Assembly (NCBI RefSeq): GCF_001661595.2
Contig: NZ_LYPF02000002.1
Span: 62,001-126,000, forward strand
Direction of reading: 5' to 3'
Source: Crocinitomix algicola
Lineage (GTDB): Bacteria > Bacteroidota > Bacteroidia > Flavobacteriales_D > Crocinitomicaceae
Length of the DNA: 64,000 nt
The position numbers and the translations under genes are program-made. Under the pieces are notes generated by a model. The model was given only the letters and a program-made list of their open reading frames with translations, did no database searches and had not been told where the DNA came from. Position 1 is the stretch's first letter. Each line of letters begins with the position of its first letter. Positions 7,838-43,047 of this stretch are shown here, one piece after another.

Positions 7838-8136
7838 TTACAATAAGTTCACTTCTAATTTCGTTCTCCACAATGTCGCTATTGAGAGCTATTTTTTCCT
7901 TTTACCTATATAAAGATAGAATAAAAGAATTTTACAAACCTATTTTTTGAATCAAAAGTTTTAACACAATTTGAACAAATAAGTTTGACCTCAAGTTAAA
8001 AAAAATATGTCAAAATTAAAATTCCCTGACTTGTTGAGACTTATAGTGATTGAGTGGCGAGTTGCCGTGTTTTATAATTAAAAAAAGCTTTTGTTAATGT
8101 TCTGTTAAACTTTTACTTAGTTTTCTTAAGCTTTTT

Positions 8137-8144
8137 TATATTTG
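8137..8144 (+). promoter_or_regulatory. Bacteroidota -7 box ahead of the DUF1573 operon
   Basis: TATATTTG fits the Bacteroidota -7 consensus TAnnTTTG exactly and lies 28 nt before the first DUF1573 start. The -33 element is weak (only TTA at about the right spacing). The remainder of the gap 7838-8172 is AT-rich and shows nothing else recognisable. Confidence 0.45.
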
Positions 8145-8172
8145 AGGAAATAAGTTTATTAAAGAATCAAAA

Positions 8173-8661: not shown

Positions 8662-8686
8662 TTTAAAATAAGTAAAATAGAACGAT

Positions 8687-9501: not shown

Positions 9502-9509
9502 CGTCTTTT

Positions 9510-10355: not shown

Positions 10356-10378
10356 AGCTAAAATTAGATTTTAATTGA

Positions 10379-10918: not shown

Positions 10919-10992
10919 ATTTGTTATCAATCTGTTAAGTAGAATTTTGAACCCGCAAAAAGGAATATATTTAGACAAAAAACACCTAATTC

Positions 10993-26622: not shown

Positions 26623-26898
26623 ATGAGTACAGAAGTAGAATTTGAAGAAGAGATTGCGGTAGACTCAAAAACCGCTGGCGGTAAAAATTTGGTGATTTAT
26701 AATGATGATTTCAATACATTTGATCATGTGATTGATTCTTTAGTAAAGGTTTGTAAACATGAATTGGTTCAGGCTGAACAATGTACTTGGATAATTCATT
26801 ACAACGGTAAATGCGCAGTAAAAGAGGGAGATATGGATCAATTGTTGCCAATGCGCCGAGCCCTTAGTGAACGTGGAATTGATGCTAAAATTCATTAA
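26623..26898 (+). CDS. clpS: ATP-dependent Clp protease adaptor ClpS
   Basis: 91 aa. It delivers N-degron substrates to ClpAP/ClpCP. Seen: LVIYNDDFNTFDHVIDSL (the ClpS NDxxNT signature), the His of the KVCKH helix, WIIHYNGKCAV and the C-terminal RRALSERGIDAKI strand. The N-terminal extension is short and acidic. It lies immediately downstream of the 2488-aa protein gene and may be cotranscribed with it. Confidence 0.93.
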   Translation: MSTEVEFEEEIAVDSKTAGGKNLVIYNDDFNTFDHVIDSLVKVCKHELVQAEQCTWIIHYNGKCAVKEGDMDQLLPMRRALSERGIDAKIH

Positions 26899-26943
26899 TC
26901 ACGATTTCTCCAATTTTTTAACGGAGGAATGAAAAAAAAGTAT

Positions 26944-26951
26944 TACTTTTG
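26944..26951 (+). promoter_or_regulatory. -7 box of the tRNA-Arg promoter
   Basis: TACTTTTG fits TAnnTTTG, is followed by GCACC, and lies 47 nt ahead of the tRNA. A good -33 TTG at standard spacing is not seen. Confidence 0.45.
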
Positions 26952-26998
26952 CACCGGATTTAATCAAATAAGTGATTTTATCGGCAAAATAAAATACT

Positions 26999-27072
26999 GG
27001 CCTCGTAGTTCAACTGAATAGAATACCTGATTACGGCTCAGGCGGTTGCAGGTTTGAATCCTGCCGAGGTCA
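26999..27072 (+). tRNA. tRNA-Arg (anticodon ACG)
   Basis: All four arms fold: acceptor GGCCTCG/CGAGGTC (one G-T pair), D stem GTTC/GAAT, anticodon stem CCTGA/TCAGG with loop TTACGGC giving ACG at positions 27033-27035, and T stem GCAGG/CCTGC with loop TTTGAAT (the usual C is T). The discriminator is A; CCA is not encoded. A34 is expected to be deaminated to inosine to read CGN codons. It marks the left edge of the accessory island. Confidence 0.93.
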
Positions 27073-27080
27073 CTAAGAGT

Positions 27081-27254: not shown

Positions 27255-27344
27255 TAATATCGACTTTCGAACAATTGGAGTTAAGATCAATTTTGAAAAA
27301 TTGAGAGAAGATGCGCCCTTACCATGTATTGTGCATTGAATCAA
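27255..27344 (+). pseudogene. relic of the C39 peptidase domain of a bacteriocin-type ABC exporter (copy 0)
   Basis: Translated, it gives IDFRTIGVKINFEKL then DAPLPCIVH, matching residues about 57-85 of the intact exporter at 35474. The Trp codon after CIVH is TGA, a stop. Everything before is missing and the homology ends at the codon for Gln after HWN, exactly where copy 1 (30045) also ends. It is therefore the tail of a third, otherwise lost copy of the exporter gene. Confidence 0.75.
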
Positions 27345-27495
27345 TTGTTGATAGACAATATTTTCGTTAAGCCACTCATCAAACTCTTCAAGAAAAGTTC
27401 TTCCAAAGTCATTTCAAAAGCTTTAATAATTTTAATCCCGCATGAAAAGCGCAAATCTTCTTCACGCCTTAATCGATTATATTGCGGTAGAGTAT
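27345..27495 (-). pseudogene. relic of an XRE-family helix-turn-helix regulator (copy A)
   Basis: Read on the minus strand this gives RREEDLRFS followed by IKIIKAFEMTLEELF, the second half of a Cro/C1-type HTH domain (x-DLRFSTxIKIIxAFxMTLEEFF). The N-terminal recognition helices and a start codon are absent. The same relic, about 90% identical by eye, occurs at 30046-30200, in both cases fused to the truncated C39 sequence. Confidence 0.55.
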
Positions 27496-27506
27496 TTGGT
27501 ACAGAA

Positions 27507-27881
27507 ATGGTGTTGCTTACATTTATAACGGATGTAATACAGATTCTAAAATTATTCATGCATTTTGGTGTACTGGCTAATATCAGTTTTTTCTTAATCT
27601 GGTTTTCATATTATACTTTACTTCTAGTTCAAGCTAAAAATGAAAGGGAATTAAATGATTGTAAAGTGAATACGGCGGATAAAAACTGTATTTCAGAAAT
27701 AGGACTAACACCTCGTGAATTGGAAGTAGCAGCATATATTCTTAAAGGTGAAACCTATAACGACCTTGCAGAAAGAATGTATATAAGCCATAAAACAGTA
27801 TCAAAACACGCCTCTAATATTTTTAAAAAAGCTGAATGTTGTAACCGAGAGGAATTTTTGTTGAAATACTTGAAAGTATGA
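27507..27881 (+). CDS. shortened membrane LuxR-type regulator (internal deletion)
   Basis: 124 aa from the ATG at 27507. It equals the intact regulator at 31341 minus 172 internal residues: FGVLV..NISFF becomes FGVLANISFF. The intact gene has ACTGGTT at both deletion ends (31433-31439 and 31949-31955), 516 nt apart, so slippage or recombination between short repeats removed five of seven membrane helices in frame. The LuxR HTH domain (LTPRELEVAAYILKGETYND, then HKTVSKHASNIFKK) is complete and nearly identical to the intact copy. The original start region is replaced by the XRE relic. It may still bind DNA or may be dead. Confidence 0.6.
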   Translation: MVLLTFITDVIQILKLFMHFGVLANISFFLIWFSYYTLLLVQAKNERELNDCKVNTADKNCISEIGLTPRELEVAAYILKGETYNDLAERMYISHKTVSKHASNIFKKAECCNREEFLLKYLKV

Positions 27882-27902
27882 TTTTTAAAGAGACGAAAGC
27901 GT

Positions 27903-27943
27903 AAGTATGTAATTACGTATTTGAAAATACGTATAAAATACGT
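27903..27943. promoter_or_regulatory. ACGT-palindrome cluster before the orphan precursor (candidate LuxR operator)
   Basis: Same array as at 32283-32321 (AATTACGTA, ATACGTAT, AATACGTT) but with the first half-site altered from TACGTAATTACGTA to TATGTAATTACGTA. It sits between the regulator and the precursor gene. Confidence 0.4.
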
Positions 27944-28074
27944 TCACTTATTGAAGTGTTTTTGTTCAGACACATCATCTTTACCATGTTTGGTATTTGT
28001 TGCAACATTTTTTGAATACTGGGGATGCCGAAAACCACTATTTTAGAGTAGGCAATATTAAAATTTATTTAAAA

Positions 28075-28347
28075 ATGAAAAGTTTAAAAAGTGATTTATT
28101 CAAAAAATTTGAAGATTCCAATTTAACCAAAGAATCATTACAAATTGTTGAAGGAGGTGGAGGCCCAGGATCAAATAGTACTGGTGACCATGATTGTACG
28201 AGCAGTCAAGGCTCAGACTGTGGCGATTTAGAGACAGATGCAATTTTTGATACAGATCAGACTCTAAAAGGTCAAGATGGCTGTGGTGTAGCATCATCAT
28301 CTGATTATTCTACTGGTTCTGCATCTTACTCATATTTTTCAAAATAG
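28075..28347 (+). CDS. putative RiPP precursor with double-Gly leader (orphan copy)
   Basis: 90 aa. The start at 28075 was chosen because it matches the start of the second precursor (MKSLKSDLF against MKSIKNFEG) and follows the same conserved leader RNA; a longer frame back to 27997 would translate that leader. Residues 1-28 form the leader (LTKESLQIVEGG). The core of about 62 residues is rich in Ser, Gly and Asp with four Cys (HDC, SDC, DGC spacing) and ends SYSYFSK. The acidic and hydroxyl residues suit ester/amide cross-linking by an ATP-grasp ligase. Its own maturase genes downstream are broken. Product name is inferred from context. Confidence 0.7.
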   Translation: MKSLKSDLFKKFEDSNLTKESLQIVEGGGGPGSNSTGDHDCTSSQGSDCGDLETDAIFDTDQTLKGQDGCGVASSSDYSTGSASYSYFSK

Positions 28348-28358
28348 ATCTTAAAGTT

Positions 28359-28395
28359 AAAACGGGAGTAAAAGACAAATTTACTTCCGTTTTTT
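28359..28395 (+). terminator. terminator after the orphan precursor
   Basis: AAAACGGGAGTAAA pairs with TTTACTTCCGTTTT (one G-T pair), followed by T residues. Like the hairpin at 32679 it lies between the precursor and maturation genes. Confidence 0.75.
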
Positions 28396-28436
28396 ATAGA
28401 GTATTCCCTAATATATATAGAGTATTCCCAAATATA
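28395..28436. repeat. two tandem 21-nt repeats
   Basis: TATAGAGTATTCCCTAATATA is followed directly by the same word with one change (T to A after CCC). It begins at the terminator T-run and precedes the next gene by 63 nt. The next 60 nt hold nothing else. Confidence 0.7.
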
Positions 28437-28499
28437 TTTTTAGATGTTATTAGCACCTAGCAAATTTTCAATAATTTTTAATACTAAACAGGTTTAAAT

Positions 28500-29375
28500 A
28501 TGATAAAAGTTTTTCTGAAGATAGTTTTTATCCTATTTTCACTTTATTCTTACACTCAAAACCAAAGTTATAAAATCATTTATGAAGAAATATACCCTAA
28601 GCTTAACTCTGACTATCAATCAGCAAAAGAGGAATGGTTAAAGATGGAAGCTCAATACGACAGTATTGATCCAGCGGAGCAAGTATTGATGTCGGGATAT
28701 GCCTTAATGAATAATGATATAACGTTTTTCAAGAGGAGAATTATTCCATTAATGAAGTATTATGGTTGGAATTACTCGCAGGAGCTAGATACAATGTATT
28801 CGGTTGTTGAAAGAAGCATGCTAAAGAGAATGATACAGGAAAAAAATCTGATTACTTGGGTTTCCAAGAAATCAAATAAGCATTATTCAAAATGGAAAAC
28901 TAATGCCCCTCTATACTCATTATATCGTAACAAAGTAGACCAAATAGTATTTTCTGATCAAGAAGTTATTAGGTTGTTTAATGAGGATACTACTCTGACA
29001 GATAACTGCGTATTTTTGGACAGTCTTATTTCAACAGTTCATTTTTATCACATAGAAGAAATTATCAAACTATGTAAGTTGAATAACGGTTTATTATTAA
29101 ACAATTTTGACAATGGAATAGGAATATATAATAAATTGAGTTTCATTATTTGGCACAATCTTAAAATTGAAGTGAATTTTCAAAAAACTTGGGATGCGTT
29201 GTTACCTTTTATCGAAAAAGCTTACTTTCAAAATAAAATAAGTTATACATTATTTATGGCCTATGATAAATGGAGTTTATATCATTATGGTAATCAATAT
29301 TATGGAACTATAAATGGGAAAGATATAAGGGAAGAAGTAACTTTTCCTGAGCGGAAAAAAAAGTATAGATTATGA
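28500..29375 (+). CDS. exported protein of the decayed RiPP unit, unknown function
   Basis: 291 aa with a signal peptide (hydrophobic 5-20, YSYTQ). The C-terminal third has a W-H-N helix followed by a QNKISYTLFMAYDKW helix and the ending QYYGT, which weakly resembles DUF6624 proteins; this is a tentative reading. It occupies the same place as the 163-aa protein at 32724 in the intact unit. The stop overlaps the broken gwsG start (ATGA). The frame is undamaged, so it may still be made. Confidence 0.6.
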   Translation: MIKVFLKIVFILFSLYSYTQNQSYKIIYEEIYPKLNSDYQSAKEEWLKMEAQYDSIDPAEQVLMSGYALMNNDITFFKRRIIPLMKYYGWNYSQELDTMYSVVERSMLKRMIQEKNLITWVSKKSNKHYSKWKTNAPLYSLYRNKVDQIVFSDQEVIRLFNEDTTLTDNCVFLDSLISTVHFYHIEEIIKLCKLNNGLLLNNFDNGIGIYNKLSFIIWHNLKIEVNFQKTWDALLPFIEKAYFQNKISYTLFMAYDKWSLYHYGNQYYGTINGKDIREEVTFPERKKKYRL

Positions 29376-29677
29376 TTTTAATAATTTCTAGCAAAGATGA
29401 TAGGACAACCAATGATGTCATTGATTGGCTCAGGTTTTTTTAAGTTATCTTTTTTGAGAGTTTCTTCTGAAGATATAGTCGACATCATAAATGTTTTTAT
29501 CGGAGAGAAAATCAATGATATAGAATTTGTAGTACGAAAAAAGAAGTATAAATTAAGTGAGTTTACTTCTGTTTGGTATAGAAGAAACTGGTTAAAGATA
29601 AATGGATATTTATATCAAAATGAGGATCAAGAATTAACAGGTGAGATCAACAAGCAATTATTAACTGAGAATGGAAA
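29372..29677 (+). pseudogene. gwsG: N-terminal stump of a grasp-with-spasm ATP-grasp maturase, frameshifted
   Basis: From the ATG at 29372 the frame reads MILIISSKDDRTTNDVIDWL, like MVIIISS at 33216, and then meets TAA inside a run of seven T; one T fewer restores the frame, which continues through VWYRRNWLKINGY (matching FWYRKARLKMF). The ATP-binding core and the whole C-terminus are missing: the sequence passes straight into the end of gwsS. It is clearly diverged from the intact gwsG, so it was a paralogue rather than a recent copy. Confidence 0.8.
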
Positions 29678-29791
29678 GGAGAGGAAGGATATAAAACTCT
29701 AGAAGAATGCGGGGTAATTTCAAATGAAAAGGGGTTTAAAATTGACCATGAAAAAATCTCTCTAATTAATGAGGAACTATGGGGAGAATAA
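29678..29791 (+). pseudogene. gwsS: C-terminal end of a SPASM-domain maturase
   Basis: Only the last 37 codons remain: GEEGYKTLEECGVISNEKG and the DHEKISLINEELW ending, almost identical to the end of the intact gene at 35486. It is joined in a different frame to the gwsG stump, which places the deletion breakpoint at about 29677. Confidence 0.85.
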
Positions 29792-30045
29792 ACTTTCCAT
29801 TCCAAAGCAACCCAACCAAATGAATTGCGGTCCAACTTGCTTACGCATGATTGCGAAGCATTATGGTCGTAGTATATCGTTGGAAAAACTGAGAAAACTT
29901 TCTGAAACAACTCGTGAAGGACCTTCCCTTAAAAACATTGCAGATACAGCTGAAAATATCGGTTTTCGTACCTTTTGAGTTAAAATCAATTTTGAAAAAT
30001 TGAGAGAAGATGCACCCTTACCATGTATTGTGCATTGGAATCAAT
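29779..30045 (+). pseudogene. truncated, frameshifted C39 peptidase domain of an ABC exporter (copy 1)
   Basis: It matches the first about 90 codons of the exporter at 35474: the catalytic-Cys segment NCGPTCLRMIAKHYGR is intact, but one base is lost between the ATG and this motif, and GGA is changed to TGA after FRT. Homology stops after CIVHWNQ, where the XRE relic begins. The catalytic His/Asp, membrane and ATPase domains are all gone, so no export function remains. Confidence 0.85.
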
Positions 30046-30200
30046 TGTTGATAGACAAAATTTTCGTTAAGCCACTCATCAAACTCTTCAAGAAAAATTC
30101 TTCCAAAGTCATTTCAAATGCATTAATAATTTTAATCACACATGAAAAACGCAAATCTTCTTCACGTCTTAATCGATTATATTGCGCTAGGGTATTTGAT
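30046..30200 (-). pseudogene. relic of an XRE-family helix-turn-helix regulator (copy B)
   Basis: On the minus strand: RREEDLRFSC then IKIINAFEMTLEEFF, the same HTH fragment as copy A and slightly better preserved. The stretch from here to about 30756 holds no gene or repeat that I recognise; it is AT-rich and probably contains the promoter of the GNAT gene. Confidence 0.55.
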
Positions 30201-30756: not shown

Positions 30757-31344
30757 ATGGTTTTTATTTCAATTAAAAGAATGGAAAAACACAAAAAAGA
30801 AAGAGTAATCAAGATTCTAACAGAATCATTTAAAGACAACAAATCAACAACTCTTGTAGCAAAGCAAGATAAAAAAAAAGATAAAAGGTTAAAAAAACTG
30901 ATACAATATTCGATTTTTTATGGAGAAAGCTTTGGTGAAGTTTTTTTAACAGAAGATAAGAATGCTTGTTACATTATCATAGATACGGAAAAAAAGAAGA
31001 CAACTTGGAGAAGTATAATTTGGGACGTGAGACTGATGTTTCAATGCATTGGTATTAAAAACGTTAGAAAAGTAATGAAACGCGAGGCACTAATTAAGTC
31101 AAATCATCCTAAAGGGAGTTTTATTCATTTGTGGTATATAGGAGTTATCCCAACAAAGCAAAGTTTAGGGATTGGGACAAGATTGATGAAAAAAATAGTT
31201 AAATCTGCTCAAGCTCAAAATAGAAAGATTTACCTCGAGACTTCTACTGAAAGAAATTTCAAATTTTACGAACAACTTGGATTTAAAGAAGAATTAACAC
31301 TTAACCAATTAGGCTATTCACTAAAAATGTATTCTTTAAAATGA
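30757..31344 (+). CDS. GNAT family N-acetyltransferase
   Basis: 195 aa from ATG 30757, chosen because AGGAG lies just upstream; an extension to a TTG at 30727 is possible. The acetyl-CoA site is visible: LWYIGVIPTKQSLGIGTRLM (about 127-146, Q-x-x-G-x-G), and the terminal NFKFYEQLGF strand-turn. The N-terminal half is Lys-rich. The stop overlaps the LuxR start by four bases (ATGA), so the two are cotranslated. An immunity or tailoring role in the peptide system is only suggested by position. Confidence 0.8.
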   Translation: MVFISIKRMEKHKKERVIKILTESFKDNKSTTLVAKQDKKKDKRLKKLIQYSIFYGESFGEVFLTEDKNACYIIIDTEKKKTTWRSIIWDVRLMFQCIGIKNVRKVMKREALIKSNHPKGSFIHLWYIGVIPTKQSLGIGTRLMKKIVKSAQAQNRKIYLETSTERNFKFYEQLGFKEELTLNQLGYSLKMYSLK

Positions 31345-32258
31345 ATCAGAGTGTATTTGGTACTGAAATGGTATTGCTTACATTTATAACGGGTGTAATA
31401 CAGATTCTAGCATTATTCATCCATTTTGGTGTACTGGTTTCTAAACCATATAGTAGAGCCAATTGGAGGTTTTTATTTTTAATATCATTATTTGTATGCT
31501 ACAATATATTTAGTGGACTGTTTCCAGATCGAAATATTCATTCGATTAACCTTTTCATACAAAATGTTCTTGCATTTGGAAGTGGTATTATTCTAGCTTG
31601 CTATTACTTTTATTTTCTTGTAAAGGAACTTGAAATAAACCAAAGAAGTTTTTTTAACATAAAGTTTCTATTCTTATCATTAGTATCATCCTTTTTGTTG
31701 CTTTTTGTTTTAACCTATTTTTTATACGGTGATTTTAAAATTGCGAGGAAGGTTTTTATAGTTCCGCCTGTAGTTATTGCCTTATATTTTTGTTTCAATA
31801 CGATTAGAGAGATTCGTATAAAATCCGCGCAAACTTCGATTCAGGGATTGTATCGGAGCTTAAACATTGCTGGAAAATTTGGGATTATGTTCATGGCAAC
31901 TATGCCTATAATAGTTTCAATCGGAGATTATCAACTTATTAATAATGGACTGGTTAATATCAGTTTTTTCTTAATCTGGTTTTCATATTATACTTTACTT
32001 CTAATTCAAGCTAAAAATGAAAGGGAATTAAATGATTGTAAAGTGAATACGGCGGATAAAAACTGTATTTCAGAAATAGGACTAACACCTCGTGAATTGG
32101 AAGTAGCAGCATATATTCTTAAAGGTGAAACCTATAACGATCTTGCAGAAAGAATGTATATAAGTCATAAAACAGTATCAAAACACGCCTCTAATATTTT
32201 TAAAAAAGCTGAATGTTGTAACCGAGAGGAATTTTTGTTGAAATACTTGAAAGTATGA
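31341..32258 (+). CDS. membrane-bound LuxR-type transcriptional regulator (intact copy)
   Basis: 305 aa. About seven hydrophobic helices (roughly 9-32, 43-60, 70-93, 105-127, 135-152, 175-190, 203-220) are followed by a linker and a C-terminal LuxR HTH (about 245-305: LTPRELEVAAYILKGETYND and SHKTVSKHASNIFKKAECCN). The architecture suggests a sensor that binds a ligand in the membrane and DNA in the cytoplasm without a kinase. Its position before the precursor, and the duplication of both together, point to control of the RiPP operon, possibly by the exported peptide. Confidence 0.8.
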   Translation: MNQSVFGTEMVLLTFITGVIQILALFIHFGVLVSKPYSRANWRFLFLISLFVCYNIFSGLFPDRNIHSINLFIQNVLAFGSGIILACYYFYFLVKELEINQRSFFNIKFLFLSLVSSFLLLFVLTYFLYGDFKIARKVFIVPPVVIALYFCFNTIREIRIKSAQTSIQGLYRSLNIAGKFGIMFMATMPIIVSIGDYQLINNGLVNISFFLIWFSYYTLLLIQAKNERELNDCKVNTADKNCISEIGLTPRELEVAAYILKGETYNDLAERMYISHKTVSKHASNIFKKAECCNREEFLLKYLKV

Positions 32259-32282
32259 TTTTTAAAGAGACGAAAGCGTAAG

Positions 32283-32321
32283 TACGTAATTACGTATTTG
32301 AAAATACGTATAAAATACGTT
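32283..32321. promoter_or_regulatory. ACGT-palindrome cluster before the intact precursor (candidate LuxR operator)
   Basis: TACGTAATTACGTA (32283-32296) is a perfect 14-nt palindrome. ATACGTAT (32304-32311) is an 8-nt palindrome and AATACGTT follows at 32314. Four ACGT cores lie in 37 nt. The array recurs at 27903 in the decayed unit, in the same place between regulator and precursor. Confidence 0.45.
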
Positions 32322-32400
32322 CACTTATTGAAGTGTTTTTGTTCAGGTACATCATCTTTACCATGTTTGGTATTTGTTGCAGCATATTTTAACCAGAGTT

Positions 32401-32431
32401 TTGCTTGCTCTCTTATTGAAAAAGCAAGCAA
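32401..32431 (+). promoter_or_regulatory. leader-RNA hairpin before the precursor
   Basis: TTGCTTGC pairs with GCAAGCAA across a 15-nt loop, 54 nt before the precursor ATG, with no T-run. The surrounding leader (GGGGATGCCGAAAACC onward) is nearly identical before the orphan precursor, but there the hairpin is deleted. Confidence 0.4.
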
Positions 32432-32485
32432 TGGGGATGCCGAAAACCACTATTTTAGAGTAGGCAATATCAAAATTTATTTAAA

Positions 32486-32665
32486 ATGAAATCAATTAAG
32501 AATTTCGAAGGAAAAAAGTTGGTTAACGAAGGTATTAACCAAGTAAAAGGAGGAGAAAGAACTCCAACAGCGAACAATGACCTCGTTATAGTGCGTGGAG
32601 ATAAAGTTAAGTATAAAACGAATCATGACTTGAATCCATTCAATAATGATGGTTGGTCGAATTAA
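32486..32665 (+). CDS. gwsA: putative RiPP precursor peptide with KGG leader
   Basis: 59 aa. The leader MKSIKNFEGKK...INQVKGG (1-23) has the Bacteroidota double-glycine pattern cut by C39 exporters. The core of 36 residues (ERTPTANNDLVIV, then KVKYKTNHDLNPFNNDGWSN) is rich in Asn, Asp, Lys and Thr, with no Cys. Carboxylates next to Lys/Thr are what ATP-grasp maturases join into amide or ester rings. It stands directly before a terminator-like hairpin and the maturation genes. The gene symbol follows the grasp-with-spasm naming and rests on context. Confidence 0.75.
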   Translation: MKSIKNFEGKKLVNEGINQVKGGERTPTANNDLVIVRGDKVKYKTNHDLNPFNNDGWSN

Positions 32666-32678
32666 ACCTTAAACTAAC

Positions 32679-32709
32679 AGCTGCGGTATGATAAATACCG
32701 CAGCTTTTT
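32679..32709 (+). terminator. strong hairpin between precursor and maturation genes
   Basis: Perfect 11-bp stem AGCTGCGGTAT/ATACCGCAGCT with a 5-nt loop and five T. It probably lets most transcripts stop after the precursor, so the peptide outnumbers its enzymes. Confidence 0.85.
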
Positions 32710-32723
32710 AATGCATTCAATAC

Positions 32724-33215
32724 ATGAAATATTCATTTTTACTCATATCACTTAATTTCGTATTCTATACATATAGTCAAGATTCACTTCAAATCCGTAA
32801 ATGCGAGATAGTTGAAATATTTAAACGAATAAACAAAACTGACAAGTCAAACATAAAAGATACAACGATCAGATATCAATCATTTCAAGATAATTTTAAT
32901 CAGATTGTAAGTTTAATTGAGTCTGGCGGACTTATTGATGCAAGCAGTTTTAGTAAAAAGGAGCGAAAAATAATATCTCAGGGAATAACAAGAACTTTTA
33001 TTCATATTTTTCAAATTAATGCTGATCTAATTTTGAATGAACACTTTATTCATCTGATAGCAAATGAGTTAAAAGCCGGAAGGTTTAGTAGGGAGTATCT
33101 AGTTGTTCCGCTATCAATTTATGTTTATGATAATAACATCAAAAGTCCATTTACAGGAGTTCTAAAAGAAGCTTTGATCAAATGGGAGATAAGCGATAAA
33201 GAAATTCTAAGATAA
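32724..33215 (+). CDS. small exported protein of the grasp-with-spasm operon
   Basis: 163 aa with a signal peptide (MKYSFLLISLNFVFYTYS-Q). The rest is helical, with a HIFQINADLILNEHFIHLI - ELKAGRFSREYLVVPLSIYV pattern that faintly resembles DUF6624. It is the positional counterpart of the 291-aa protein at 28500. Function is not recognised; accessory or immunity roles are possible. Its stop directly abuts the gwsG start codon. Confidence 0.65.
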   Translation: MKYSFLLISLNFVFYTYSQDSLQIRKCEIVEIFKRINKTDKSNIKDTTIRYQSFQDNFNQIVSLIESGGLIDASSFSKKERKIISQGITRTFIHIFQINADLILNEHFIHLIANELKAGRFSREYLVVPLSIYVYDNNIKSPFTGVLKEALIKWEISDKEILR

Positions 33216-34205
33216 ATGGTTATAATAATATCAAGTGATTTTGATGAATCGACAGATAAAGTGATGAAATGGCTTTTACGATTCAAAAAAGACATCATAA
33301 GAACTGGAAATTTTAATTATTTATCAGGTATTACAATTTCAAATGAGGAAAGTAAATTTAAGATATTTCTTGAATTAAGTTCGGGTATTAGTTTTGACCT
33401 TGATAAAGTTGAATCATTTTGGTATCGCAAAGCTAGACTTAAAATGTTTGAAAATCTTACTTTAACCTTACCGAATGATTTAGCTCAGATTAATGAAGAA
33501 TACAAGGAGTATATTTTAGGCGAAGAATTACAATCTTTGGAAACATTTCTGTTAAGAACTCTTGAAAAAAAAGCTCACATCGGAAATTATTTCGAAAAAA
33601 ATGGGAATAAACTTTTTTATTTTCAAGAAGCAATTAGTGCTAAAATGAATGTCCCTCAATTTATCGTCTCGACTGATACCAAAAAACTTTCCAAAAAATT
33701 ATTGAATGGATCGAAAATGATTAAACCTTTACAAGATTTGTTTTATTCTATTAATGAAAAAGAAACGATTAAAAACTATTATTCAGTTGAATTTAACATG
33801 AATGAATTATCTCTTTTTGCTAAGGAAACATTTCCGTCAATGCTTCAGAATTATGTCGATAAGAAGTTCGAGATTAGAACCTTTTTCCTGAAAGGAGAAT
33901 TATATTCAATGGCTATTTTTTCTCAAAATGATGAAAAAACTAAGATTGACTTTAGAAATTATAACGATAATCATCCCAATCGAATGATTCCCTATCAAAT
34001 GCCTGATCATATGAAATATAAGATTTGTTCTTTTATGAAATCTATAAACCTTAATACGGGATCATTGGACTTTATCATGACTAAACAAGAAGAATATGTA
34101 TTCCTTGAGGTTAATCCAGCTGGTCAATATGGGATGGTTGAAGCCAACTGCTTTTATTCTTTAGATGAGAAAATTGCTAATTATTTAAATAAATACAATG
34201 ACTAA
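33216..34205 (+). CDS. gwsG: grasp-with-spasm system ATP-grasp peptide maturase
   Basis: 329 aa ATP-grasp ligase of the RiPP (graspetide-like) type. Seen: an N-terminal pre-ATP domain (MVIIISSDFDESTDKVMKWL, SFWYRKARLK), the mid-domain strand KMIKPLQDLF with the ATP Lys, the EIRTFFLKGELYSMAI strands, and the C-terminal GSLDFIMT...FLEVNPAGQYGMVE block whose Glu and Asn bind Mg-ATP. Such enzymes activate Asp/Glu side chains in the precursor and join them to Lys/Ser/Thr. Adjacent to the SPASM maturase and precursor, it fits the described grasp-with-spasm gene set. Confidence 0.88.
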   Translation: MVIIISSDFDESTDKVMKWLLRFKKDIIRTGNFNYLSGITISNEESKFKIFLELSSGISFDLDKVESFWYRKARLKMFENLTLTLPNDLAQINEEYKEYILGEELQSLETFLLRTLEKKAHIGNYFEKNGNKLFYFQEAISAKMNVPQFIVSTDTKKLSKKLLNGSKMIKPLQDLFYSINEKETIKNYYSVEFNMNELSLFAKETFPSMLQNYVDKKFEIRTFFLKGELYSMAIFSQNDEKTKIDFRNYNDNHPNRMIPYQMPDHMKYKICSFMKSINLNTGSLDFIMTKQEEYVFLEVNPAGQYGMVEANCFYSLDEKIANYLNKYND

Positions 34206-34371
34206 AAAAAAACTTACTTCACCTTTAATCTCTGTAAAAATAAAGAAAATTGATCACTCAAACAATTTGCGTTCTCACAGTAAGTCAGTTAAATGTAGAT
34301 CTCTTCAAACTAGTTCAATGGTGCCTGATAAATATTATAAACCTATTTCCTCTCTATGTATTACCCATTAA
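34198..34371 (+). CDS. 57-aa small ORF between the two maturases
   Basis: Not called by length filters. The ATG lies in ATGACTAA at the gwsG stop (8-nt overlap) and the stop TAA lies 16 nt inside gwsS, so the frame exactly bridges the 150-nt gap. The product (MTKKKLTSPLISVKIKK..., ending YYKPISSLCITH) is basic, with a Ser/His/Asn-rich middle, two Cys and no membrane helix or GG leader. It may be a second substrate, a small maturase subunit, or chance; the decayed unit has lost this segment, so no comparison is possible. Confidence 0.5.
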   Translation: MTKKKLTSPLISVKIKKIDHSNNLRSHSKSVKCRSLQTSSMVPDKYYKPISSLCITH

Positions 34372-35486
34372 ATGAGTATTTCAAATTATTTAGTGACTGC
34401 TCAATTGTTACTGGATACAGAAACGCGATACTTTTAGATTTTACCAGACCAAACAAGTCTAATTTTGTTCCTAAAGAACTTCTTTCGTTTCTCAATTCTT
34501 GTGCCAATAAAACTGTTGAAGATGTATTAAATCACTATAACAATGAAGATAAGCAAGTTGCAATTGAGTATTTAGATTTTATGGTGGAGAATGAATTTGG
34601 TTTTTTCGTTTCTGATAAACTAAAGAATAATTTTCCTACAATAAATACAAACTTAAAAAAGTCTCCAGAAATTATTGATAATGTAGTATTAGAAATTGAT
34701 GGTAACAATCTTAAGCATTTAAAATCTATTCATTCACTCATAGAAAAGTGCCTTGTTGCAAGTTTAGAGATCAGGTGTTTGAGCTTGACAAATCAAGAAC
34801 TGGAGCAACTTATCCTCTCATTTTCAGCTTCTATTGTTCAATCGATTAATATATATCTTAAGTATATTCCCAATAGTATGCAATTAGATGATTTAGAAAA
34901 AATAGCAACGTTAAACTCTCGAATAAAGAAATTCATTGCATACGGAGGAGATTACAATGCTACTTCAACAATAAATAGGGACATACAAATAACCTCAAAA
35001 AAGTTCAATGAAAATAAAATTGTCCGAGCAAATATTATTAACCTTTCTTACCACATTGAATCATTAAATGTATGTACTTATAGATATAAAAAACTTTATA
35101 TCTCTCTTAATGGAGATTTAAAGAATCATCTATCCTGTGATAAGGTAATAGGCAATATAAGAACTGATAAAACTGAAAAGCTCATAGAATTCTTCATAGA
35201 AGAACACAGTAAAAATGAAAATTGGTTTATAAAAAAAAGCAACATTGACGTATGCAGAGATTGTGAATTTAGAACCGTTTGTTTTACGAATAATCTTCCA
35301 CTGAAAAACAATCAAGGAGGTCTATATTTAGAAACCGAATGTACTTATAATCCTTATATCGGGAAAGCGGTAGGTGAAGAAGGCTATAAAACTCTGGAAG
35401 ATTGTGGCGTAATTTCAAATGAAAAAGGCTTTAAAATTGATCATGAAAAAATAACTCTAATTAATAAAGAGTTATGGGAAGAGTGA
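34356..35486 (+). CDS. gwsS: grasp-with-spasm system SPASM-domain peptide maturase
   Basis: 376 aa. The C-terminal SPASM cysteines are visible: NVCTYRYKKLYISLNG with LSC, then CRDCEFRTVC (about 301-310) and a final TECTYNPYIGK (about 329). No CxxxCxxC radical-SAM motif is present in the N-terminal two thirds, so it probably binds auxiliary Fe-S clusters and recognises the peptide rather than doing SAM radical chemistry by the usual route. It starts inside the 57-aa ORF and overlaps the exporter gene by 13 nt. Confidence 0.87.
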   Translation: MYYPLNEYFKLFSDCSIVTGYRNAILLDFTRPNKSNFVPKELLSFLNSCANKTVEDVLNHYNNEDKQVAIEYLDFMVENEFGFFVSDKLKNNFPTINTNLKKSPEIIDNVVLEIDGNNLKHLKSIHSLIEKCLVASLEIRCLSLTNQELEQLILSFSASIVQSINIYLKYIPNSMQLDDLEKIATLNSRIKKFIAYGGDYNATSTINRDIQITSKKFNENKIVRANIINLSYHIESLNVCTYRYKKLYISLNGDLKNHLSCDKVIGNIRTDKTEKLIEFFIEEHSKNENWFIKKSNIDVCRDCEFRTVCFTNNLPLKNNQGGLYLETECTYNPYIGKAVGEEGYKTLEDCGVISNEKGFKIDHEKITLINKELWEE

Positions 35487-37687
35487 ACTTTTCATTCTAT
35501 AACCAACCCGACCAAATGGATTGCGGACCAACTTGCTTGCGCATGATTGCGAAGCATTATGGTCGTGGTATTTCGTTGGAAAAACTGAGGAAACTTTCTG
35601 AAACAACTCGTGAAGGATCTTCCTTAAAGAACATAGCTGATACTGCGGAGAATATTGGTTTTCGAACGATTGGAGTTAAAGTTAGTTTTGAAAAATTAGA
35701 AAAAGATGCACCATTACCATGCATTGTTCATTGGAATCAATATCACTTCATTGTTGTATATAAGATTAAGAAAGGCATTGTTTATGTTGCTGACCCTGCT
35801 CATGGATTATTAAAGTACTCGAAAGAAGATTTTGTTAAAAACTGGATTGGAAATGGAGCCGACAGTAAAACGGAAGAAGGTATAGCTCTACTCATGGAGC
35901 CAACTCCACGATTAAAAGGGATTGAGGCAGACGATAAAGAAGCCCGAAAAGGCTTTTCTTTTTTATATCAATACCTATTTCGGTATAAAAAATTCATGTT
36001 TCAGTTGTTTCTGGGACTTTTAGCAGGAAGTCTTTTACAACTGATTTTTCCCTTTTTGACGCAAAGTGTTGTTGATGTTGGTATTCAAAATCAGGACATT
36101 AATTTCATTTATCTCATTTTAATTGCTCAACTCTTCTTATTTCTTGGAAGAACGGCAATAGAAATAATTAGAGGTTGGATATTGTTACACCTGAGTACCC
36201 GCATCAACATATCCTTGATTTCTGATTTTTTCATTAAGCTTATGAATCTACCAATTGCTTATTTTGATGTGAAAATGACGGGCGATATTATGCAACGGAT
36301 CAACGATCATAATCGCATTGAAAATTTATTGACCTCGCAATCATTAAACGTGCTTTTTTCATTGTTTAATTTGGTTGTTTTTGGAGGAGTGTTAGCATGG
36401 TATGACCTTAAAATTTTTGGAATTTTTCTTGTTGGTAGTTTGCTGTATTTTATATGGGTGATACTGTTCTTAAAGCGAAGAAAAGACCTAGATTATAAAC
36501 GATTTTCACAGATGAGTGATGAACAAAGTAAAGTCATGGAGCTCATTAATGGAATGCAAGAAATAAAACTCCATAACGCTGAAAAACAAAAGCGTTGGAA
36601 TTGGGAATTTTTGCAAGCTCGTTTGTTTAAAATTTCCATGAAAAGTTTGGCATTAGAACAAACACAGACGATTGGTTCCAACTTCATTAACGAGATCAAG
36701 AATCTTCTCATAAGCATCTTTTCAGCAAAGCTCGTTATAGATGGACAAATTACCCTTGGGATGATGATGTCCATTTCCTACATAATTGGTCAATTGAACA
36801 GTCCTATCCAGCAATTAATTGGTTTTGTTTATTCCGTTCAAGATGCCAAGATTGCATTAGAGCGATTATCAGAAATTCATCATAGAGAGGATGAAGAACC
36901 ATTGGATCAAGAAAAATCTTCTCACATTCCTGAAAGTAGTGATTTGAATATTGACAATATAAGTTTCAGATATATTGGTGCTTCAGAAGAAGTAATTAAA
37001 AATCTCAGTTTAACGATACCTGAAAATAAAATTACGGCTATTGTTGGAGCAAGTGGTAGTGGGAAAACGACACTAATGAAAATTTTACTCAAATTCTATG
37101 AGCCAAGCGAGGGAGTTATCAATTTTGGAACAGTTAACCTTAACAATATCTCACAAAAGGTTTGGAGGGAGAAGTGTGGTGTTGTTATGCAAGAAGGATA
37201 TATTTTCAATGACTCAATAGCCAATAATATTGCAATAGGAGAAGATTTTATAGATCAAGAAAAATTAACAGAAGCTGTTGAAGTAGCTAACATTAAGGAT
37301 TTTGTAGAGTCTTTACCGTTAGGGGTCAACACCAAAATAGGAATGGATGGAGTGGGGATGAGTACAGGACAAAAACAACGGTTACTCATAGCAAGGGCGG
37401 TATATAAGAATCCTGATATTATTTGTTTTGATGAAGCTACCAGTGCGCTAGATGCAAAGAATGAGCGCATTATAATGGAAAACCTGAACCGCTTTTTTAA
37501 AGATCGAACGGCAATTGTTATTGCTCACAGATTAAGCACGGTAAAAAATGCAGACCAAATAGTCGTATTAGATGAAGGTAAGATTATCGAAAAAGGTACA
37601 CACGCTGAATTAGTAGCAAAAAAAGGTAGTTATTATACCTTGGTTAAAAATCAATTGGAATTAGAAAAGTTAAACAATGCCAAATAA
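35474..37687 (+). CDS. C39-peptidase ABC exporter for the RiPP
   Basis: 737 aa, one polypeptide with three parts. Peptidase C39 (1-140): catalytic Cys in MDCGPTCLRMIAKHYGR, His in NQYHFIVV, Asp in VADPAHG. Membrane domain (about 160-450). ATPase (about 490-737): Walker A GASGSGKT, Q-loop VMQEGYIF, signature MSTGQKQR (instead of LSGGQ), Walker B IICFDEATSALD, H-loop IAHRLST. It removes double-Gly leaders while exporting the core. Both precursors in the island carry such leaders. Confidence 0.95.
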   Translation: MGRVNFSFYNQPDQMDCGPTCLRMIAKHYGRGISLEKLRKLSETTREGSSLKNIADTAENIGFRTIGVKVSFEKLEKDAPLPCIVHWNQYHFIVVYKIKKGIVYVADPAHGLLKYSKEDFVKNWIGNGADSKTEEGIALLMEPTPRLKGIEADDKEARKGFSFLYQYLFRYKKFMFQLFLGLLAGSLLQLIFPFLTQSVVDVGIQNQDINFIYLILIAQLFLFLGRTAIEIIRGWILLHLSTRINISLISDFFIKLMNLPIAYFDVKMTGDIMQRINDHNRIENLLTSQSLNVLFSLFNLVVFGGVLAWYDLKIFGIFLVGSLLYFIWVILFLKRRKDLDYKRFSQMSDEQSKVMELINGMQEIKLHNAEKQKRWNWEFLQARLFKISMKSLALEQTQTIGSNFINEIKNLLISIFSAKLVIDGQITLGMMMSISYIIGQLNSPIQQLIGFVYSVQDAKIALERLSEIHHREDEEPLDQEKSSHIPESSDLNIDNISFRYIGASEEVIKNLSLTIPENKITAIVGASGSGKTTLMKILLKFYEPSEGVINFGTVNLNNISQKVWREKCGVVMQEGYIFNDSIANNIAIGEDFIDQEKLTEAVEVANIKDFVESLPLGVNTKIGMDGVGMSTGQKQRLLIARAVYKNPDIICFDEATSALDAKNERIIMENLNRFFKDRTAIVIAHRLSTVKNADQIVVLDEGKIIEKGTHAELVAKKGSYYTLVKNQLELEKLNNAK

Positions 37688-38957
37688 TCAAGGAAACATA
37701 AGAAGTGATGAAGTGCAGGAAATCATGTCTCATGTTCCTCACTGGATGATAAGATGGGGAATTACTGTGATCTTTTTATTGATTGCTTTATTAATCTTCA
37801 TTTCATGGTTTATCAAGTATCCTGATGTAATTCAGGGAGGAGTTACCATTACAACAAAAGTACCACCAGTCAAATTGGTTACAAAATCTTCAGGGGAAAT
37901 TAAAGAACTTTATTTTGAGGATAATAGTGAAGTTAAAAAAGGTCAAATCATTGCAGTTATTGATGATAATTTCTCAAGATCTTCAAAAAATTATTTATCA
38001 GAAGTGATTGTAAATGTTGAATCTAATTTGAATAAGGAAATGTCTGATATTCAATTGAGTGATGATTCTTTGGTTTTTGGTTCAATGCAGGCGAATTATT
38101 CAGAATTGAAAAAGGCAGTTCAAGACTATCAATATTTTTTAGCTCATGACCCTACTAATTTTGAGATTGAAAATATTGAAGAGCAAATTCAGAATCATAC
38201 AATCCTAAGATCTGTGAGCTACCAGCAGTTAAACACTGCGAAGAAAGAATTGGAAAATGCTCAATCTAAATATGAGTCTGACAAAGTATTATTTGATAAA
38301 CAAGTCATCTCAAAAGTACAGCTCTATGAAGAAGAACAAAAACTGATACAAGCAGAAAATAATGTGGGCAATTATAAAAAGTCAGCCGTCCAAAGTTCCA
38401 TAACGATTACAGATTTAAAAAAACAGTTAAATGCCTTAAAGAATGAAAAAGCAAAGAAAAGAGAGCAATTTTTGCAAAACATCAATTTTAGTTTATCTAA
38501 CCTAAAAAATGATCTAACCACATGGGGGCAAAATTACCAATTGATCGCCCCTTTTGATGGTAAAATAAGTTACCTAACAAGGGTTACTAAAAACGAGTAT
38601 GTTTCTCAGGAGACAAGCCTTTTTGCCGTTATCCCTGAAAACCAAAACTATATTGGATATATTGATGTCTCAAAATCGGGCTACGGTAAAATCAAAAAAG
38701 GGCAAAAGGTCAAAGTACAAATTGATAATTATCCTTATCATGAATTTGGGCAGTTAATAGGAGAAGTAAGTAGTATTGCCTTGCTTCCAGATAAGGATAA
38801 TTATAGAGTTGAATTTCTTCTTGAAAAGGGGATGAAATCCACCTACGGCAAAACGTTCGATTACACGCCTGAAATGTCAGGAACTGCGGATATAATTACA
38901 GAAGACATTCGATTGCTAACACGGATATTTAACAAATTCAGAAAAGCATTTGATTAA
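37677..38957 (+). CDS. HlyD-family periplasmic adaptor subunit
   Basis: 426 aa. One N-terminal membrane helix (about 28-47), a KLVTKSSGEIKELYFEDNSEVKKGQIIAVI lipoyl half split over two strands, a long coiled-coil hairpin (about 160-270), the second lipoyl half (LIAPFDGKISYL) and a beta-barrel domain. It links the ABC exporter to the outer-membrane channel. It overlaps the exporter gene by 11 nt. Confidence 0.92.
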   Translation: MPNNQGNIRSDEVQEIMSHVPHWMIRWGITVIFLLIALLIFISWFIKYPDVIQGGVTITTKVPPVKLVTKSSGEIKELYFEDNSEVKKGQIIAVIDDNFSRSSKNYLSEVIVNVESNLNKEMSDIQLSDDSLVFGSMQANYSELKKAVQDYQYFLAHDPTNFEIENIEEQIQNHTILRSVSYQQLNTAKKELENAQSKYESDKVLFDKQVISKVQLYEEEQKLIQAENNVGNYKKSAVQSSITITDLKKQLNALKNEKAKKREQFLQNINFSLSNLKNDLTTWGQNYQLIAPFDGKISYLTRVTKNEYVSQETSLFAVIPENQNYIGYIDVSKSGYGKIKKGQKVKVQIDNYPYHEFGQLIGEVSSIALLPDKDNYRVEFLLEKGMKSTYGKTFDYTPEMSGTADIITEDIRLLTRIFNKFRKAFD

Positions 38958-40231
38958 TGAGATTATGTTTTACTATATTATCAATCATTTTTCTCTCAAC
39001 ATCATTTGGACAGGGTGAATGGACGTTAGAACAGTGCATAGATTCAGCTATGGCAAATAACAACGGTATCCGTTTATCAGAACTTGACTTGGGCATATCA
39101 GAAGTAAATATGAGAGCTACAAATTTGAACTACATGCCTAGTGTTAATGCAAATGCTACGCACGGATATAATTGGGGACAAACAATTGATCCTTTTACTA
39201 ACCAGTTTGCAGCTAATCGAGTTCAATACAACAACTTTTATCTGTCTAGCAGTTTAACTTTGTTTTCAGGTCTAACGAATCATTATAGCCGAAAAATAGA
39301 AACCATTGATTACAGAATAAGCGGGGAGAACTTAAAGCGAAAAAAAAGGAGTATAACACTTGACATTATTACAGCTTATTTACAAGTTAAACTCAATAGC
39401 GAGCTTGTTAAGCTTCGTGAAAAGCATATCTCCTATATCAAGGAAACGATAGAACGAGATATAATTTTAGAAGAGTTGGACTACCAAACCAAGAAAGACA
39501 GATTAGAATCTGAAGCTCAAAAATCGAAAGAAGAGTATCAAATGATATTGGCATTAAACGATTTAAGAAAAGCTTCATTTTTACTGCAAACCTTGATTGG
39601 GATAACTCCTGATTCAACATTTCAGCTTTCTGATAGCATTTCGCTTGAAATGAGTTTTAACATTGATGAAAATCTTTTGCAAACCCTGAATACGAAAAGA
39701 ATACTTTATGAAAATAAGCAATTGAAGGGCAGGTTACTTCCAACGATAAGTATTAATGGTTCGCTAGGAAGTGGGTATTCGGAGAATAATAAATTTCTTA
39801 CACCTAATGGCGAGTTAGCTCCAAAACCTTTCGATGACCAATTAAGTGAAAACTTTTATCAATCACTATCGGCAACAATCAGTATTCCTATTTTTAGCGG
39901 TGCAAATTCCTATTCCCAGATCAAAATAAATCAATTAGAATACCAACAGCAACTCATACGTAATGAACAACACTCCATTCGTCGCAAAAATCAATTATTG
40001 GAGTATCACCTGGATATAGAAAATCAAAAAGCTGCATTGGAGTCAGCTAGAAAGTCTTTTGATGCATACACAAAACTTTATGAAGATTCAAAAATTCAGT
40101 TTGAAAATGGGGTGATTGATTATTACACTTTTATTCAAGTTAAAGATGATTTCTTCAATGCTGAATCTGAGTTAGTACAATCAAAATATAGGCTGTTATT
40201 TGCAGAGTTTATTTACATGGTTTACCTCTAA
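38957..40231 (+). CDS. TolC-like outer-membrane efflux protein
   Basis: 424 aa with a signal peptide ending near SFG-Q. Two repeated OEP halves: WTLEQCIDSAMANN at the start, long amphipathic helices, LLPTISINGSLGSGY, SATISIPIFSGANSY and a FENGVIDYYTFIQVKDDFFNAES helix. It completes a type I secretion path (ABC, HlyD, TolC) for the modified peptide. It overlaps the HlyD gene by one base. Confidence 0.92.
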   Translation: MRLCFTILSIIFLSTSFGQGEWTLEQCIDSAMANNNGIRLSELDLGISEVNMRATNLNYMPSVNANATHGYNWGQTIDPFTNQFAANRVQYNNFYLSSSLTLFSGLTNHYSRKIETIDYRISGENLKRKKRSITLDIITAYLQVKLNSELVKLREKHISYIKETIERDIILEELDYQTKKDRLESEAQKSKEEYQMILALNDLRKASFLLQTLIGITPDSTFQLSDSISLEMSFNIDENLLQTLNTKRILYENKQLKGRLLPTISINGSLGSGYSENNKFLTPNGELAPKPFDDQLSENFYQSLSATISIPIFSGANSYSQIKINQLEYQQQLIRNEQHSIRRKNQLLEYHLDIENQKAALESARKSFDAYTKLYEDSKIQFENGVIDYYTFIQVKDDFFNAESELVQSKYRLLFAEFIYMVYL

Positions 40232-42896: not shown

Positions 42897-43047
42897 ACGA
42901 ACATAAGTTATCGGTTAAAAATTGAATGCAATTCTGCAAATGTGTTAAACTCCGGGTCAACTTTTGAAGTTAATCTTGTAGAACTATTGAGATTTTCATA
43001 ACTTCTTGAAAATAGGTGGCTTGAACCACCGGTAAAACCTAAAAGTT

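Follow-up and report, generated by a model that had tools for sequence, protein, structure and literature searches.

At 30757-40231 of the Crocinitomix algicola window (the whole 64,000-nucleotide stretch analysed), the analysis confirmed an intact operon that belongs to a known kind, the grasp-with-spasm graspetide clusters. We give a probability of about 0.7 to the whole picture, in which this intact cluster works with a non-radical SPASM partner, an LPL protein acting in trans and layered expression.

Gene set and class of the cluster

The earlier note named nine genes here (GNAT, 7TM-LuxR, KGG precursor, exported protein, ATP-grasp, SPASM, C39-ABC, HlyD and TolC), and all nine lie where it placed them, although its list overlooked the gene at the LPL position, the terminator, the operator, the RNA element and a decayed copy upstream. 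Its reading of the operon as RiPP-encoding, of the graspetide (ATP-grasp) type and with type I export through C39, was borne out, with every frame open. The GNAT gene was found as described, but its start is likelier at 30781 than at 30757, judged by eye from orthologue starts. The features are:

30781..31344, +, GNAT acetyltransferase, first gene of a cassette (PF00583 36.3 bits, above cut-off)
31341..32258, +, 7TM sensor carrying a LuxR helix-turn-helix at its C-terminus (GerE 46.3 bits, above cut-off)
32283..32320, no strand, operator of four ACGT half-sites directly behind the regulator gene (repeat, conservation)
32425..32465, +, DUF805b-type RNA pseudoknot before precursor B (RF02914 34.9 bits, E 3.7e-7)
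32486..32665, +, precursor B of 59 aa with a KGG leader and no Cys in its core (open frame, leader match)
32679..32705, +, intrinsic terminator or attenuator after precursor B (-19.3 kcal/mol, z -6.4)
32724..33215, +, 163-aa protein with signal-peptide-like start, at the place of the cluster-23 gene (position)
33216..34205, +, ATP-grasp graspetide synthetase (TIGR04192 267.9 bits, cut-off 230)
34198..34371, +, small protein of 57 aa at the LPL position, with KYYKPISSL at its C-terminus (position)
34356..35486, +, protein with putative RRE, partial barrel and reduced SPASM domain, radical-SAM motif absent (profile, motif count, fold models)
35474..37687, +, C39 peptidase-ABC exporter (C39 128, ABC_membrane 112 and ABC_tran 101 bits, all above Pfam cut-offs)
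37677..38957, +, HlyD membrane fusion protein (PF13437, HlyD_3, 48.1 bits, above cut-off)
38957..40231, +, TolC-type outer membrane channel (PF02321, OEP, 138.7 bits, above cut-off)

In the available part of Makarova et al. (2022, PMC8939145), grasp-with-spasm (TIGR04192/TIGR04193) is branch 5, to which this cluster belongs: it shares the ATP-grasp, the small gene directly before SPASM, the SPASM, C39-ABC and HlyD genes, as well as genes for a GG precursor and an exported protein ahead of the ligase. It differs in its SPASM protein, which is below cut-off and has one cluster's cysteines, and in its cassette, operator and RNA element, which that part of the paper does not mention. The cluster probably also corresponds to group 14 of Carter et al. 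(2026, PMC13097080), a membership which we infer; in the available part of that paper, a SPASM-domain protein always co-occurs in group 14, an NHLM-type transporter is frequent, and the group lies outside the two that were characterised.

The genome contigs were scanned first with the SPASM protein, which gave no match, and then with the ATP-grasp alignment, which did find relatives. The ligase has 20 invariant columns in alignment with 16 relatives, and it misses the cut-offs of the microviridin models TIGR04185 and TIGR04184 (MvdC/MvdD; 128.6 bits against 425 and 94.5 against 475). Several relatives have ABC, HlyD and TolC genes behind the ligase, small ORF and SPASM gene, and the gap between ligase and SPASM is filled by a small ORF in 86 of 90 adjacent pairs, in this same order. 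The window's small protein qualifies as LPL-type by position, its letters being SPL and not LPL. The 163-aa exported protein could not be linked to the cluster-23 proteins (hmmsearch 2.6 bits, hhalign 5% probability). Precursor B only grazes PF14406 (17.2 bits, cut-off 25) and its best matches, in loci L059 (E 3.3e-4) and L031 (E 4.4e-4), have just the leader and first core residues in common with it, which upholds, as far as compared, the note's view that no characterised product has this core.

A ligase-family relative is encoded in at least 551 of 588 candidate stretches. The family is common, yet to our knowledge no product of a cluster with both ligase and SPASM protein is known. A nearby tRNA-Arg was rejected as an integration mark: of 30 scanned ClpS loci, 20 have a tRNA-Arg(acg) close by, so that its closeness mostly reflects common gene order.

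Upstream, 27256-30198 is a decayed tandem copy that retains a second open, cysteine-bearing precursor:

27256..27498, +, relic, C39 fragment and short sequence (92% DNA identity to 29955-30198)
27489..27881, +, 7TM-LuxR relic that has lost an internal part but retains the HTH end (98% protein identity over 102 residues)
27906..27943, no strand, operator copy A, one half-site changed (repeat comparison)
28013..28053, +, DUF805b-type RNA element before precursor A (RF02914 29.4 bits, E 2.9e-5)
28075..28347, +, precursor A of 90 aa with an EGG leader and 3 Cys in its core (open frame)
28359..28393, +, hairpin and T run after precursor A (-15.7 kcal/mol, z -2.95)
28500..29375, +, open 291-aa protein, signal-peptide-like start (31% over 288 aa to an ORF of locus L045)
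29436..30044, +, relics in one run of the ATP-grasp N-end, SPASM C-end (89% over 37 aa) and C39 N-end (81% over 88 aa) (protein identity)

The 291-aa protein has no Pfam match and, by its resemblance to the ORF of graspetide locus L045, is probably of the cluster-23 type. The relics at 27256-30198, together with a SPASM protein under the TIGR04193 cut-off, could be taken to mean that the whole locus is decaying and product-less, with its tandem copy ruined, its exported protein shortened and its SPASM protein reduced. It seems unlikely, as the downstream frames are all open and mostly overlap or abut, the ligase, C39 and ABC domains are whole, and a reduced SPASM is common to 29 of the 93 SPASM proteins compared.

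The SPASM protein as partner or radical enzyme

The earlier note had named as refuting that neither protein matches the maturase models. Both do match: the ATP-grasp passes the TIGR04192 cut-off, while the SPASM protein matches nearly the full TIGR04193 model and in the right place, though at 145.2 bits against a cut-off of 175. Because of this score we file it as a variant and not as a strict equivalog; the same cut-off was missed by all six tested relatives with the reduced cysteine set and passed by all four with the full set.

That the SPASM protein is a second maturase, a radical one, was not confirmed, since the radical-SAM AdoMet cluster motif CX3CX2C is found in none of the 93 SPASM family proteins, the window protein included. 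Only four cysteines (C300, C303, C309 and C329) are invariant in the alignment of 67 rows. The AlphaFold model of the whole protein (pLDDT 91.2) has four PDB matches at E <= 0.001, all of them chains of SuiB (2.7e-5 to 6e-4). SuiB is a radical SAM/SPASM peptide enzyme with an RRE, and the window protein resembles it in being its best fold match and in the order of RRE, barrel and SPASM, but its barrel looks partial, it lacks the AdoMet cluster motif, and superposition of the entire model on SuiB is poor (TM 0.24-0.32, rmsd 15). When the N-terminal 97 residues were modelled alone (pLDDT 90.9), the ten best PDB rows in Foldseek were lasso B1 proteins, ThcOx, the PbtF RRE and TruD, at E 0.07-0.5 with none <= 0.001 and unrelated proteins from rank 11; against 6jx3 the overlay gave TM 0.64/0.71 and rmsd 2.2. 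Both ThcOx and TruD carry an RRE. From these models the protein reads as a RiPP recognition element, a partial barrel and a one-cluster SPASM domain, and it is probably no radical enzyme but a ligase partner.

In the available part of PMC8939145, the SPASM family is assumed to act as a radical-SAM maturase, which here would add C-C, C-O or thioether links. A SPASM domain is indeed present (weak in the window protein, found in 39 of 67 relatives), the closest structural match is a radical-SAM enzyme, and precursor A contains Cys; however, with CX3CX2C missing in 93 of 93 and precursor B free of Cys, we regard this role as highly improbable. Core Cys was likewise not tied to SPASM cluster content: comparing full with reduced SPASM cysteine sets, and leaving out 30 loci without a called precursor, Cys-bearing loci numbered 25 of 43 vs. 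12 of 17 (Fisher p 0.56). The invariant cysteines point to a metal site, and for this reason a non-radical catalytic role is conceivable. Parsimony puts 14 changes between full and reduced SPASM proteins on the ligase tree, but just one is required by the branches with good support, and therefore we give no count of losses.

A ligase with a separate partner has a precedent in rosaritide, where, in the available part of PMC13097080, the graspetide ligase MirB needs MirC, whose N-domain is weakly RRE-like. The window's SPASM protein would be a similar RRE-like partner, as we propose, but MirC is related to PPIases and chaperones and not to SPASM. That part of the paper does not state an RRE or a missing radical motif for the group 14 SPASM protein, and an earlier mention of the missing motif is possible in Haft & Basu (2011).

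Cassette, operator and RNA element before the precursors

The GNAT and 7TM-LuxR genes are a separable cassette with an ACGT-repeat operator, present in three genera without TIGR04192 genes. Near full-length regulator matches (43-63%) occur in G010, G014, G018 and G034 among 98 other genomes, and a further match in G147 (46%); GNAT orthologues lie directly before the regulator in G010 (63%), G014 (64%), G018 (53%) and G147 (49%), and no TIGR04192 match was found at E 0.001 in G010, G014 or G018. The note's assignment of regulator and GNAT to the system was thus half right: they form their own cassette, adjacent in the window as in those four genomes, and are unusual in graspetide operons, with one GNAT match at E 1e-5 (in L098) and one regulator contig in 100 graspetide loci. 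Microviridin clusters have an N-acetyltransferase, and the GNAT, which opens the same gene run as the graspetide genes, could similarly tailor the peptide; an acetyltransferase is also frequent in group 7 graspetide clusters in the available part of PMC13097080. Three genomes that gave no TIGR04192 match have its orthologue paired with the 7TM regulator, and in graspetide loci it is rare, which makes such tailoring improbable. The operator is conserved, and a search for it in 150 genomes led to a new graspetide cluster.

Both RNA elements match Rfam RF02914 (DUF805b) over its full length and resemble it in pairs and in position before a start codon, but score under its gathering score of 35.6 bits. 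The R1 RNA model gives 37.8 bits before precursor B and 35.8 before precursor A, both being training rows. A DUF805b-type pseudoknot lies about 20 nt upstream of the precursor start codon in 25 of 98 sources, both window precursors included, and covariation is shown for the element. Its free-energy folding is no better than that of shuffles (z 0.7), which a pseudoknot would explain but which lends the element no support. Genome-wide, RF02914 has matches in 63 of 99 genomes, with up to 21 per genome (above gathering in 32 of 99), and also precedes unrelated genes that look like rhodopsins and lipoproteins; one match above gathering (40.0 bits) lies elsewhere in the window's genome, at G000:C4, and no sizeable ORF follows it. 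The element may therefore serve leaders in general and have no particular link with these peptides, a serious possibility although the odds are somewhat against it, as 22 of the 25 model matches in 1.45 Mb of graspetide loci lie 14-31 nt before a GG/GA small ORF. A general role and a peptide tie can be compatible, in one regulon with the peptides among its members. In the literature covered, no paper names the DUF805b family, and we found no earlier link of an operator and RNA pseudoknot before the precursor to graspetide peptides, although a mention of such a peptide link is possible in the family's original description.

Proposed mechanism and its meaning

The chemistry of the rings, the roles of partner and LPL protein, the docking, the direction of regulation and the function of the product are inferred, as follows. 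The ATP-grasp ligase would join core Asp/Glu side chains to Thr/Ser/Lys side chains as ester or amide rings. The SPASM protein would not carry out radical chemistry; with the RiPP recognition element at its N-terminus it may hold the precursor leader, its barrel/SPASM remnant would dock on the ligase, and the LPL-position protein would help in trans. Cleavage behind KGG would be done during export by the C39-ABC/HlyD/TolC exporter. The GNAT-7TM-LuxR cassette may act at the ACGT operator behind it, the pseudoknot in the leader RNA may gate the precursor, and the terminator would leave the precursor in excess over the enzymes.

To hypothesize more broadly, all TIGR04193 proteins could be RRE-bearing pseudo-radical-SAM partners, whose RRE would take leader recognition over from the ligase, with the LPL protein supplying a ligase-activating segment in trans, graspetide precursors belonging to the DUF805b RNA regulon, and the precursors of the window family being wired to a portable GNAT-7TM-LuxR/ACGT-operator cassette; taken jointly, we hold this tentatively, at slightly less than even chances. 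Branch 5 leaders are without the usual ligase-binding motif in the available part of Makarova et al. (2022, PMC8939145).

If the SPASM protein is a partner, expression trials would best combine ligase, SPASM and LPL proteins without radical-SAM conditions, and products with -18 Da losses only would be expected. The operator and the RNA element are handles for precursor discovery and for identifying the inducing signal, and the RNA element connects an Rfam family of unknown role with a class of secreted peptides.

Operon content and family assignment

All nine operon genes were found, with open frames, where the earlier note had placed them, and the C39, ABC, HlyD, TolC, GNAT and GerE domains of their products exceed the Pfam cut-offs. 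The same note had read the maturases as a grasp-with-spasm pair; in the family scan the ATP-grasp ligase passed TIGR04192 (267.9 bits, cut-off 230), while the SPASM protein stayed under the TIGR04193 cut-off (145.2 bits, cut-off 175), and precursor B, for which a search against known precursor families had been proposed, did not reach PF14406 (17.2 bits, cut-off 25). The features used below are as follows.

27256-30198: copy A, decayed tandem unit (precursor A, 28075-28347)
28018-28054: RNA element of copy A, Rfam RF02914, 29.4 bits
30757-40231: copy B, the intact operon (precursor B, 32486-32665)
32283-32320: operator, ACGT half-sites 3' of the regulator gene
32430-32466: RNA element of copy B, Rfam RF02914 (DUF805b, cis-reg), 34.9 bits, E 3.7e-7
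34198-34371: LPL-position gene, overlapping the ligase and SPASM genes, missed by the earlier note

The gene layout is of the kind that the branch 5 passages of Makarova et al. 2022 (PMC8939145) describe, a branch having ATP-grasp, SPASM, a cluster-23 protein and a small LPL protein immediately 5' of SPASM, with GG precursors mostly 5' of the ligase; a passage of Carter et al. 2026 (PMC13097080) lists graspetides with SPASM co-occurrence as group 14. An ORF of 45-111 aa occupies the ligase-SPASM gap in 86 of 90 adjacent pairs (median 183.5 nt). The window's protein ends in KYYKPISSLCITH and is one of 30 gap ORFs among the 86 that fit [KRH]P[ILVM][SAC], the strict pattern for the C-terminus; 62 of the 86 have a hydrophobic-P-hydrophobic step within the first 45 residues, where the window's protein reads SPL. 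The window's genome holds one TIGR04192 and one TIGR04193 match; with this genome counted, TIGR04192 is matched at E 0.001 in 16 of 99 genomes and above cut-off in 10. In named genomes, an alignment-based scan found at least 551 ligase relatives among 588 stretches; the best 80 were retained.

Copy A matches copy B with 91% DNA identity (27569-28080 vs 31946-32491), the match stopping 6 nt inside both precursor genes, with divergence beyond. Still present in it are the regulator's HTH end, the operator (one half-site altered), the RNA element, a 291-aa protein and the 90-aa precursor A with three Cys; its ligase, SPASM and C39 genes are remnants, and an additional C39 piece, at 27256, is a 92% repeat of 29955-30198. 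The enzymes of copy B could act on precursor A. C39 relic fragments end at a similar place, after PLPC...WxQ, in the window (29781-30044) and in locus L245 (7800-8153, 9565-9918), coinciding across two genera as if tandem units shared an exporter-gene breakpoint. A ClpS gene and tRNA-Arg(acg) lie immediately 5' of copy A (26623-27073) and also 5' of the graspetide cluster L048 of genome G037, a common gene order in the family; in L188 (G001:C97) two tRNA-Arg(acg) genes (7893-7969, 14600-14674) stand 6.6 kb apart beside ClpS, possibly around an inserted stretch.

The SPASM protein and proposed maturation

In the branch 5 passages, Makarova et al. 2022 (PMC8939145) count the SPASM protein among the radical SAM enzymes. 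None of the 95 SPASM proteins scanned, all 280 aa or longer (93 once duplicate contigs are removed), contains CX3CX2C anywhere, and only C300, C303, C309 and C329 (window numbering) are invariant cysteines in a 67-row alignment. By regular expression, a further CxxC step is present in 64 of the 93 and absent in 29, including the window's. Bit scores against TIGR04193 were 73-159 for six of these reduced proteins and 185-416 for four full ones, so the cut-off separates these ten by the CxxC trait. Pfam detected the SPASM domain in 39 of the 67 relatives at E 1, and Radical_SAM was without a match among the 25 families listed of 46.

The only PDB matches of the AlphaFold model (pLDDT 91.2) at E <= 0.001 were four SuiB chains (2.7e-5 to 6e-4), with a whole-model overlay of TM 0.24-0.32 and rmsd 15; read by eye, the middle part falls short of a full radical-SAM barrel in its number of strand-helix repeats. 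When residues 1-97 were modelled alone (pLDDT 90.9), the ten best structure matches were lasso-peptide B1 proteins, ThcOx, the PbtF RRE (RiPP recognition element) and TruD (E 0.07-0.5, probability 0.72-1.00), rank 11 being unrelated; the best overlay was 6jx3 (TM 0.64/0.71 at 2.2 A). At residue 15, within this domain, at least 90% of 46 rows have Cys. Given the missing CX3CX2C, the fold matches and the few barrel repeats, the modelled protein reads as an RRE, a partial barrel and SPASM, probably without an AdoMet cluster.

The RRE would recognise the precursor leader, which agrees with a remark in Makarova et al. 2022 (PMC8939145) that branch 5 leaders are without the usual ligase-related motif. 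For a possible role of SPASM as a ligase partner, the MirB/MirC passage of PMC13097080 offers a precedent, a graspetide ligase able to depend on a partner. In the predicted rings of core B, Asp and Glu would be joined with Thr, Ser and Lys, and cleavage is predicted after KGG because the exporter has a C39 domain. An 11-pair hairpin and T run follow precursor B (-19.3 kcal/mol, z -6.4), with a weaker hairpin behind precursor A (-15.7 kcal/mol, z -2.95), which suggests attenuation favouring the precursor. In G037 the C39-ABC exporter reads as two ORFs (L048 11288-13511). Genes for two proteins with Por secretion tails, one of them a CotH-kinase protein, lie 3' of the operon (40569-45045).

Two proposed control layers

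Both RF02914 matches in the window are below the gathering score of 35.6. GAAAA and AGAGTA cores recur in rows taken from graspetide loci and from elsewhere, together with two crossing helices, of which P1 encloses the GAAAA side and P2 closes the element. Among 34 rows, pairing cells reached 93.7% vs 65.2% shuffled and covariation 0.798 vs 0.235 (slid controls <= 0.133), support that is overstated since rows were admitted only if P2 paired and P1 had three pairs or more; by number of further pair types, these rows did not beat shuffled ones (203/500). Two sets were less biased. In the first, nine of 11 model hits outside training (excluding one whose linker is shorter and one that is cut off) paired in 24/27 P1 cells (shuffled 62%, reached by 6/2000 shuffles). 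In the second, the 15 of 30 Rfam-picked loci not in the model (4 without a usable match excluded), P1 paired in 44/45 cells (shuffled 86%, 0/2000) and P2 in 43/45.

Searching 98 sources (1.45 Mb) with R1, the RNA model trained here, gave 25 hits at E <= 0.1; 22 of them, and 8 of the 11 non-training hits, lie 14-31 nt 5' of a small GG/GA ORF. Including long-loop forms found by pattern, the element precedes a precursor in 25 of 98 sources (13/21 of the window's family, window counted, and 12/77 from named genomes). RF02914 has matches at E 0.01 in 63 of the 99 genomes and above the gathering score in 32, with weak hits in 2 of 14 control genomes. The element also precedes genes other than graspetide precursors; with this genome-wide spread, it is a shared leader element, graspetide precursors included. 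A literature search found no paper naming DUF805b RNA. Six similar small GG peptides, mostly ~200 nt apart, stand in a row in L219 (G008:C111:3000-6500), each with its own such element, and by eye one lies immediately 5' of rhodopsin-like genes in L192 and L196.

Near full-length matches to the 7TM regulator (43-63%) occur in G010, G014, G018 and G034 among 98 other genomes, weaker long ones (28-29%) in G044 and G016, and a 46% match in G147. A GNAT gene is immediately 5' of the regulator in G010, G014, G018 and G147, as in the window; a search of G034 yielded no comparable GNAT, and G049, which has the GNAT (69%), gave no regulator match. Profile search gave no TIGR04192 match in G010, G014 and G018, where the genes 3' of the cassette were judged by eye as exported or lipoproteins.

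Similarly spaced ACGT half-sites lie at or behind the regulator end in the window, G014 and G016, less completely in G010 and G018, and were not seen behind the G034 regulator. Four ACGT in 48 nt occurred 11 times in 1,971,155 bases of partly overlapping loci, all 11 being sites of G000 (the window's genome), G014, G016 or G018; the letter-shuffled window gave a mean of 0.02. The pattern ACGTAN1-6ACGTAN5-11ATACGTN5ATACGT, built on the sites of the window, G014 and G016, gave 5 sites in 4 of 150 family genomes (reversed control 0), those in G147 being the only result independent of pattern-making. Both new G147 sites are 5' of GG precursors of a previously unseen graspetide cluster, with the RNA element between. 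The G147 GNAT-7TM pair is on a contig other than the cluster's (L253, G147:C55); near it, at 6406-11372, two small GG peptides, a C39-ABC-like gene and a second LuxR-like gene were recognised by eye.

The operon belongs to a known kind, and the earlier note read it well. The analysis adds a re-reading of the SPASM protein and two proposed control layers, which were not found in print in our literature search.
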